From IMG/VR virus record IMGVR_UViG_3300048065_000600, positions 1 to 26,423 of that record: a stretch of DNA of 26,423 nucleotides; one strand, written 5' to 3'. The position numbers and the translations under genes are program-made. Shown piece by piece: positions 25,523 through 26,366 of this stretch. The notes under the pieces were generated by a model. The model was not told the origin of the DNA. It saw only the letters and a list, made by a program, of their open reading frames with translations, and did not search any database. Within the stretch, counting starts at the first letter, position 1. Each line of letters opens with the position of its first letter. The DNA is from a virus.

Positions 25523-25539
25523 GCATACATATATAATTG

Positions 25540-25989
25540 ATGCAGTGGACTTATGAAGGCAAAGAAATAGACAAAATACCAGATGAATACGAAGGATTTG
25601 TTTATCTTATTACTAATACCACTACAGGCCAAAAATACATAGGTAAAAAACTAGCAAAGTTTAAAACTACCAAGCCACCACTCAAAGGCAAGAAAAACAA
25701 AAGACGAGGCTACAAAGAAAGCGATTGGAAGACTTACTACGGTAGTTCAGACAGATTAAACGCAGATGTAGCCGAACTAGGCGAAGAACACTTCACAAGA
25801 GAAATATTATACCTATGTAAAGGTAGGGGCGAAATGTCCTACATAGAGGCAAGAGAACAGTTTGATAGGCGTGTACTTGAAACAGATGAATACTACAACG
25901 GTATCATTAATGTTAGAGTAGGCGGATCAGACAAACTCAAACAGGCATTGCTAGAACACTCCATCAAGGCAAAACAATCTAACACATAA
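25540..25989 (+). CDS. GIY-YIG family endonuclease, probably free-standing homing-type
   Basis: A 149-residue protein with a GIY-YIG nuclease core. The two strand motifs are VYL (21-23) and YIG (33-35); the glutamate candidate is E103 in SYIEARE, and N124 in IINVRVGG fits the late asparagine. Between them is a Lys/Arg-rich insert (KKLAKFKTTKPPLKGKKNKRR) and WKTYYGSS. The usual Arg after YIG is not in its normal place; lysines stand there, so activity is uncertain. The ATG at 25540 is preferred to TTG 25537. Neither has a recognisable ribosome site, so translation may depend on the gene ending 17 nt upstream. G+C is about 38% by hand count, above the roughly 32% of sampled gp46, and Arg codons are mainly AGA/AGG. 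It lies where T4 proceeds from 46 toward 45, which suggests insertion. Confidence 0.82.
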   Translation: MQWTYEGKEIDKIPDEYEGFVYLITNTTTGQKYIGKKLAKFKTTKPPLKGKKNKRRGYKESDWKTYYGSSDRLNADVAELGEEHFTREILYLCKGRGEMSYIEAREQFDRRVLETDEYYNGIINVRVGGSDKLKQALLEHSIKAKQSNT

Positions 25990-26330
25990 GGTTGGCGGGC
26001 CAGATTAATTTACCGCTGTGGAAAAAGCTCTCGTATAGAAGCACACGTAACACGTTGAGTCGCGTCTGGTAATAAGGCGTTGGATTGACGTAGATTGAAT
26101 GTTAGCAATTGAAAAACACAACACAGTTCATAAAAACTCTTTAGCAATAGGAACGAAGCGAGAGGTAGCTGGAAACAGCGATGTCGACGTAGGTTGGGAA
26201 AGGTCAGAGCCCATTGAACTAAGTGTATAAACAATTACCTACTTCCAATGTCTCGGCTGGTGCGACTCACATGAAGCGTATTTTGAGATTAGATGGGACC
26301 GTAACAGGTTCCGTCTGACTGAAACAATCT
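25990..26330 (+). ncRNA. Candidate structured RNA of unknown family
   Basis: About 340 bases directly after the endonuclease stop have frequent stops in the plus frames and G+C of about 44% (150 of 340 by hand count), against about 23% in the 93 bases after it. Many helices can be drawn: 26056-26063 with 26262-26269 (8 bp, perfect); 26189-26194 with 26237-26242 (6 bp) enclosing 26195-26198 with 26210-26213; a GAAA-capped hairpin at 26168-26179; a 10-bp hairpin at 26291-26316; and 25994-25998 with 26013-26017. A perfect 6-bp pairing (26028-26033 with 26159-26164) crosses the 8-bp helix and would make a pseudoknot. I recognise no tRNA, tmRNA, RNase P or intron core. Strand and boundaries are uncertain. 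Confidence 0.5.
26291..26316 (+). other. 10-bp hairpin with 6-base loop
   Basis: The arms AGATGGGACC and GGTTCCGTCT pair over ten positions (two G-U pairs) around the loop GTAACA. No T-run follows, so it is not an intrinsic terminator. It is more likely a structural element at the 3' side of the candidate RNA. Confidence 0.6.
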
Positions 26331-26344
26331 ACATGAAACTTAAA

Positions 26345-26366
26345 CATTATTACATTCGTAATAATG
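26345..26366 (+). terminator. AT-rich 9-bp hairpin, possible weak terminator
   Basis: CATTATTAC and GTAATAATG form a perfect 9-bp stem around the loop ATTC. It is followed by CATTTGTAT, not a clean T-run, so termination would be inefficient. It sits just after the G+C-enriched RNA-like block and could mark its end, or simply shape the leader of the next gene. Confidence 0.3.

Follow-up and report, generated by a model that had tools for sequence, protein, structure and literature searches.

A conserved noncoding RNA with a covariation-supported pseudoknot in uncultured aquatic phages

Here, we describe an RNA gene of roughly 350 to 480 nt that is present in hundreds of aquatic phage sequences and has no catalogued relative. 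We consider it most likely (with a probability of about 70%) that its product is a stand-alone, trans-acting phage noncoding RNA, comparable in kind to GOLLD and ROOL and unrelated to them in sequence, which would most likely serve as a scaffold. The RNA is widespread in uncultured marine phages, and the groups that carry it number at least two and are unrelated to each other. Its fold, including a pseudoknot in the 3′ core, is backed by matched mutations among homologues. The copy with which the others were compared comes from a linear IMG/VR fragment, 26,423 bases long, the whole of which is called the window below.

Results

In the window, the genes ahead of the RNA run in the order gp55 (late sigma factor), a gp47-like gene, a gp46-like gene and segE; ARAGORN called no tRNA or tmRNA gene in the window. 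The segE-like open reading frame (25537 to 25989, + strand) encodes a 150-residue GIY-YIG endonuclease (PF19835, E = 1.7e-36) and lies directly 5′ of the core of the conserved structured RNA (25990 to 26343, + strand), as delimited by nhmmer/MAFFT homologues and by a covarying structure. The conserved element reaches upstream to about 25967 and downstream to a hairpin at 26345 to 26366. Its leader, AGGCAAAACAATCTAACACATAA (25967 to 25989, + strand), overlaps the 3′ end of segE and stays 5′ of the RNA even at loci with a displaced segE; in L081, L166, L148, L202 and others, in which other sequence separates segE from the RNA, it reads AGGCAAA...CAACACATAA and travels with the RNA. ACATAAGG is also the start of the RNAs of a second phage lineage (lineage 2, below). 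The AT-rich hairpin downstream (CATTATTAC/GTAATAATG, + strand) varies in sequence and, judged from the sequences, is kept as a hairpin in most homologues; it is probably the end of the RNA or a terminator. Small open reading frames of about 90 to 102 codons are inserted between segE and the RNA in L081, L166, L082 and L128, and one such frame weakly matches a PHROG of unknown function.

The initial annotation had proposed a noncoding structured element at 25990 to 26330, and this held up for the + strand. The + strand folds at -97.5 kcal/mol, compared with -85.2 ± 5.95 kcal/mol for shuffled sequence (z = -2.07; 2 of 100 shuffles were as good), and the - strand gave a z of -0.29. The energy is only moderately better than that of shuffles, and by itself it is insufficient for a claim of structured RNA. 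Because reading frames are broken across homologues, and most indels relative to the window have lengths that are not divisible by 3, the region is noncoding. The + strand is the RNA strand, since it is on this strand that the fold contains many G-U pairs, which would turn into A-C mismatches on the - strand.

IMG/VR contigs were gathered with a degenerate 25-base pattern representing the GNRA hairpin and with the segE protein, which yielded 110 loci; nearly all of them have the RNA after segE (in L047, the contig ends after its first 36 bases). A further pattern, based on the GGGAAAGGUCAGAGCCC hairpin, added more loci, and the family counts are lower bounds: at least 169 full-length homologues in IMG/VR, with a non-redundant set of 104 (60 to 98% identity, 327 to 476 nt). 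Distant homologues matched the family profile with nhmmer E values from 2e-5 to 3e-48. Seed members scored 5e-11 to 4e-25 against the covariance model R1, and L279, outside the seed, scored 1e-7. L303 and L284 were considered as members and set aside; they have only the 5′ start in common with the family, and the divergence is too great for a claim. The RNA is present in one copy per record in five large records of lineage 1 (the T4-like phages described below) and in four lineage-2 or other records.

Searches of 50,697 phage isolate records with blastn and four queries (the window, L284, L267 and L296) gave no credible match, and the window core found nothing relevant among plasmids; thus, the family is known to us only from uncultured phages. 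The RNA is absent from Melnitz, HTVC026P and DSL-LC06. In a genome collection, matches were confined to two contigs of one Neomarinimicrobiota MAG, L261 and L262 (PBPT01000016.1 and PBPT01000082.1; 335 kb and 153 kb). Both carry the T4-like phage segE-RNA block, and L262 also has gp47-gp46. These are probably misbinned phage contigs, or else a clue to the host.

Covariation among homologues, which the initial annotation had named as its decisive check, was overwhelming both against the tree null and in two-sided changes. A G-test with average-product correction, applied to the 104 sequences against a null of 30 alignments that were simulated along the tree, returned 11 column pairs with E < 0.05 and at least 80% canonical pairing, nearly all of them inside helices. 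The proposed structure has 70 pairs in 13 helices. In 63 sequences, it is 95.4% canonical, and 34 of the 70 pairs show two-sided changes (450 cells). None of 500 shuffles reached its values for pairing and two-sided change, and sliding the partner columns by 1 to 3 positions lowered pairing to 34 to 43%.

All of the helices lie on the + strand. At the 5′ end, H1 (GCGG/CCGC, 25995 to 26016) is a hairpin that is 100% paired, with two-sided changes at 2 pairs. H2 (26018-20/26044-46) encloses the H3 hairpin (26027-32/26038-42), and the two (26018 to 26046) are supported by covariation and pairing, with E < 0.05 in H3 at 26027/42, 26028/41 and 26031/39. They are followed by H4, a stem-loop of variable length (26053 to 26090; 26053/90 and 26054/89 at E < 0.05, two-sided changes at 5 pairs), and by the H5 hairpin (26093-26097/26106-26110), which is 98.4% paired and has two-sided changes at 4 pairs. 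The H8 hairpin (26137 to 26164; 26138/163 and 26139/162 at E < 0.05) carries a 12-nt loop with a highly conserved GGAACGA; in lineage 2, it is swapped for stems of 6 to 7 bp, such as GTATAAC/GTTATAC. H9 (26168-26171/26176-26179; 26169/178 at E < 0.05) is the GNRA hairpin already recognized in the initial annotation, here capped by GAAA. It is a length-variable peripheral domain, ranging from a minimal tetraloop hairpin to more than 100 nt (L008).

Several other elements of the initial annotation were recovered as well. Its 4-bp UGGG/CCCA pairing is H11 (26195-26198/26210-26213), a hairpin with a conserved AAAGGUCAGAG loop that is 98% paired and shows compensation from GC to AU in L309 and reads GGA/UCC in L267 and L307. 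Its 10-bp hairpin is H12 (26293-26300/26307-26314), of the GGGACC/GGUUCC type, which can reach 10 bp in the window and is 99.4% paired, with many G-U/A-U exchanges. Two helices have weaker support than the others: H13, which is tentative, pairs GUCAG (26203 to 26207) with CUGAC (26315 to 26319) and is 99.4% paired and almost invariant (93% in the divergent set), and H14 (26250-54/26285-89), of variable length, is 77.7% paired, with two-sided changes at 2 pairs and moderate support.

In the 3′ core, conservation extends to loops (GGAACGA and GGUCAGAG) and to single strands (UUCC and CUCACAUGA). Candidate closing pairs at 25991-93/26186-88 were rejected because they show no two-sided change; so was a pairing of the loop GGAA with UUCC at 26243-46, which, read on the divergent sequences, is lost in L301, L306 and L307. 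An ACAURA motif recurs in the 5′ AACACAUAAGG, in CUCACAUGAAG (26266-76) and in CUACAUGAAAC (26329-39), with a related GUUCAUAAAAAC at 26126-37, and is kept as ACAUSA in divergent members.

The pseudoknot is formed by H7 (26125-26130/26215-26220, + strand) and H10 (26189-26194/26237-26242, + strand), which cross each other; the comparison of homologous sequences proves this pairing. H7 is 100% paired, and 3 of its pairs covary at E < 0.05. Its sequence is fully replaced, with pairing kept, in the divergent loci L232, L255, L257, L144, L136, L267, L301, L307 and L309, where it reads, for example, ACTCCC/GGGAGT (L232), ATCTCC/GGAGAT (L257), AACACAC/GTGTGTT (L267), GGACA/TGTCC (L307) or GCGCT/AGCGC (L301). 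In L261, it is a perfect match of TATGCTAC with GTAGCATA. H10 (GUAGGU/ACCUAC), a 6-bp pairing that the initial annotation had already listed, is 98.9% paired in alignment A2, and among 30 sequences it is compensated from UA to CG in 5 and from UA to GC in 2. The three-way-junction-like shape seen earlier at 26189 to 26242 is H10 enclosing H11.

An alternative partner for the 5′ strand of H10, GUAGGUUG (26189-96) with CAAUCUAC (26325-32), is 98% canonical and shows hardly any covariation. It is broken where H10 is compensated (L142 and L024, and by sequence also L144, L232, L255 and L257), and H10 is favored over it. As a separate matter, the two pairings may represent a conformational switch.

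The initial description of a pseudoknotted large RNA of an unrecognized family was thus right overall, but the pseudoknot as then drawn was not; a different one is proven. The crossing pair proposed at the time, CTCTCG/CGAGAG (26028-26033/26159-26164), pairs in only 63% of cells, both of its strands belong to well-supported local hairpins, and it shows no excess covariation jointly with the 8-bp helix that it was meant to cross. That helix, GUAGAUUG/CAAUCUAC (26090-26097/26325-26332), lacks two-sided changes and is incompatible with the covarying H5 hairpin. A suggested competition of TTCCAA with TTGGGA found no support, UUCC being nearly invariant.

The RNA is found in two phage lineages. Lineage 1 consists of T4-like phages with the order gp55-gp47-gp46-segE-RNA, and a Gp23-type capsid protein was present in 5 of 6 large records tested. 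Here, segE is adjacent (usually at 3 nt) or lies within about 330 nt upstream in all 200 testable loci, a figure that is biased by loci selected through segE but with which loci found by DNA pattern agree. Lineage 2 consists of small phages (L136, L144, L267, L296, L306, L309 and others) in which the RNA lies upstream of an ORF of about 85 codons, followed by putative TerS and TerL genes. The nearest relatives of this TerL, at about 50%, are those of phage DSL-LC06 and of Pelagibacter phages such as HTVC026P. Neither TerS nor the ca. 85-residue protein has a Pfam match, so TerS is named by position and by reading of the sequence. No segE was found in the lineage-2 stretches examined, including the upstream DNA of L136 and L144, and L257 provides a third gene context, again with the RNA and without segE nearby. 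Since distant homologues occur without segE, upstream of terminase genes, segE is not an obligate partner; indeed, the two lineages have no conserved protein partner in common. L257 and L261 retain the 3′ core and have another 5′ domain in place of the usual one.

A near-consensus sigma-70 promoter (TTGACA-N17-TATAAT/TATACT, 0 to 1 mismatches) sits 94 to 116 nt upstream of the RNA in 14 lineage-1 loci; most loci of this lineage, the window among them, lack a good promoter for the RNA itself. The RNA precedes the next gene in every case, on the same strand in 127 of 133 loci and at a median of 157 nt from its ATG. In 99 of 127 loci, a T4-type late-promoter motif, ATAAATA, lies within 80 nt of the downstream ORF, against a background of 2.1%. 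The downstream genes are diverse in lineage 1 and unrelated between the lineages. In lineage 1, these genes (for example in L041, L049, L086 and L106) often start MKINDIL.EA-like behind the ATAAATA motif, and such starts resemble the capsid-targeting N termini of T4 internal proteins; the site after the RNA may be a hot spot for exchangeable, encapsidated proteins. In L233, a T4-like phage contig, a 251-residue ORF on the reverse strand between the gp46-like gene and segE encodes porphobilinogen deaminase (HemC; PF01379, E = 6.7e-41 over the first 140 residues), possibly an auxiliary metabolic gene of heme synthesis.

Discussion

To our knowledge, RNA classes of bacteria or phages that are so long and so conserved without coding for protein are very few, and they have tended to be ribozymes, ribonucleoprotein cores or RNA assemblies. 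As we see it, the + strand would be transcribed into an RNA of roughly 350 to 480 nt, whose pseudoknotted 3′ core, in which H10 crosses H7, is accompanied by an exchangeable 5′ domain and a length-variable H9. In part of the family, transcription would start at the RNA's own sigma-70-like promoter, about 95 to 115 nt upstream; elsewhere, including the window, the RNA is probably cotranscribed with segE, and perhaps with the genes before it, and then processed. We suggest that it acts in trans during infection, because it has been retained as a single copy per record in two unrelated phage groups, amid different genes, and because a late promoter usually lies between it and the gene downstream. 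By analogy with GOLLD and ROOL, its most likely role would be that of a scaffold, either within a ribonucleoprotein or as an RNA assembly, with catalysis as the second choice.

That the RNA might instead be a cis-acting 5′ leader of the downstream gene, such as a riboswitch or attenuator, is suggested by its position on the same strand, a short distance ahead of the next ATG, and by its placement in lineage 2 before the ca. 85-codon ORF and the putative terminase genes. However, a variable hairpin follows the core and the downstream genes are unrelated between lineages, and we consider such a leader unlikely in lineage 1 because the downstream genes vary and 99 of 127 loci have the ATAAATA motif in between. 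Just as unlikely, in our estimate, is a large ribozyme, or a derived, no-longer-splicing, intron-like mobile RNA that was spread with homing endonucleases. The ribozyme-grade conservation of loops and joining strands, the pseudoknotted core, the GIY-YIG ORF alongside (segE, in lineage 1) and, 1.3 kb upstream of the RNA in L136, a weak match to an HNH-like homing endonuclease would all fit such an origin, but the RNA lies between intact genes with promoters, occurs without segE, and matches no Rfam model of group I or II introns, RNase P or any self-cleaving class. A self-splicing intron in particular is improbable since the RNA interrupts no gene and is matched by no intron model.

The nearly invariable placement of the RNA just 3′ of segE in lineage 1 also brings to mind an OMEGA-like guide for the SegE endonuclease, as reRNA sits at the 3′ end of tnpB. 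This is very improbable, because several loci (among them L136, L144 and L257) carry the RNA without segE nearby, and neither end of the RNA shows a variable guide segment; its 5′ end is leader and segE code, and its 3′ end is a hairpin. Conversely, segE relatives without the RNA occur in Methylophilales phage Melnitz. We give least credence of all to a DNA-level element (a packaging site, an origin or a SegE homing target) of which the structure would be a by-product. The RNA gene does lie near putative terminase genes in lineage 2, and homing endonucleases favor conserved targets, but G-U pairs on one strand, together with the long-range and pseudoknot compensations, mean that the pairing is RNA pairing. 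With a cis leader, a SegE guide and a self-splicing intron each unlikely, a stand-alone trans-acting RNA therefore remains as the preferred explanation. A bolder reading, which we hold tentatively and with some doubt, is that the family is a hitherto undescribed class of large phage RNA with a three-dimensional, pseudoknotted core of its own; it would be a new natural ribozyme or would assemble from RNA alone, and unrelated groups of aquatic phages would share it and need it during infection.

Phages thus appear to possess a large conserved RNA machine. Because it is widespread, has a covariation-proven pseudoknot and lacks a catalogued relative, it gives structural biologists and phage geneticists something concrete to work on. 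The case also illustrates that the reading of raw sequence can find RNA genes that protein-centered viral annotation leaves as intergenic gaps.

In general kind, this is a large structured phage noncoding RNA: long, noncoding, phage encoded and with covarying structure. Judged against Rfam 15 and a subset of the open-access literature, in which we found no description of it, the RNA belongs to no catalogued family. A cmscan of the window RNA with all Rfam 15 models gave no match at gathering thresholds, in keeping with the initial view of an unrecognized family, and at E ≤ 10 it gave only a chance match to mir-7371, with none for the divergent loci. A tmRNA or RNase P RNA is likewise not indicated by ARAGORN (tmRNA) or Rfam. 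The group I introns with GIY-YIG endonucleases of T4-like phages are similar in size, pseudoknotted and accompanied by a GIY-YIG ORF, but here complete ORFs flank the RNA in place of exons, and the strand order differs from the group I P3/P7 core, with a hairpin (H11) between the 5′ strand of H10 and the 3′ strand of H7. OMEGA, HEARO and TnpB reRNAs share the arrangement of a structured RNA beside a small nuclease ORF; in our case, however, the nuclease is GIY-YIG rather than RuvC/HNH, there is no guide end, and homologues occur without the nuclease.

GOLLD had been raised earlier as an alternative identity. Neither the window RNA nor the divergent loci match its covariance model (RF01998 in Rfam), even at E ≤ 10, which leaves that identity unsupported. 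GOLLD RNAs are often longer than 800 nt and lie near tRNA islands (PMC12286853), whereas this RNA is about 350 to 480 nt and occurs in other gene contexts, next to gp55-gp47-gp46-segE or terminase genes. As to tRNA genes, the scan covered the window, which has none. ROOL, a phage-encoded large RNA with multiple pseudoknots and no known function (PMC12286853), is also phage encoded, large and pseudoknotted like ours, but its Rfam model does not match and its context is different. There is also a likeness to GOLLD, one member of which was first found in a marine metagenome: the constant 3′ core with an exchangeable 5′ part resembles GOLLD as described (PMC12286853), a resemblance of kind rather than of membership.
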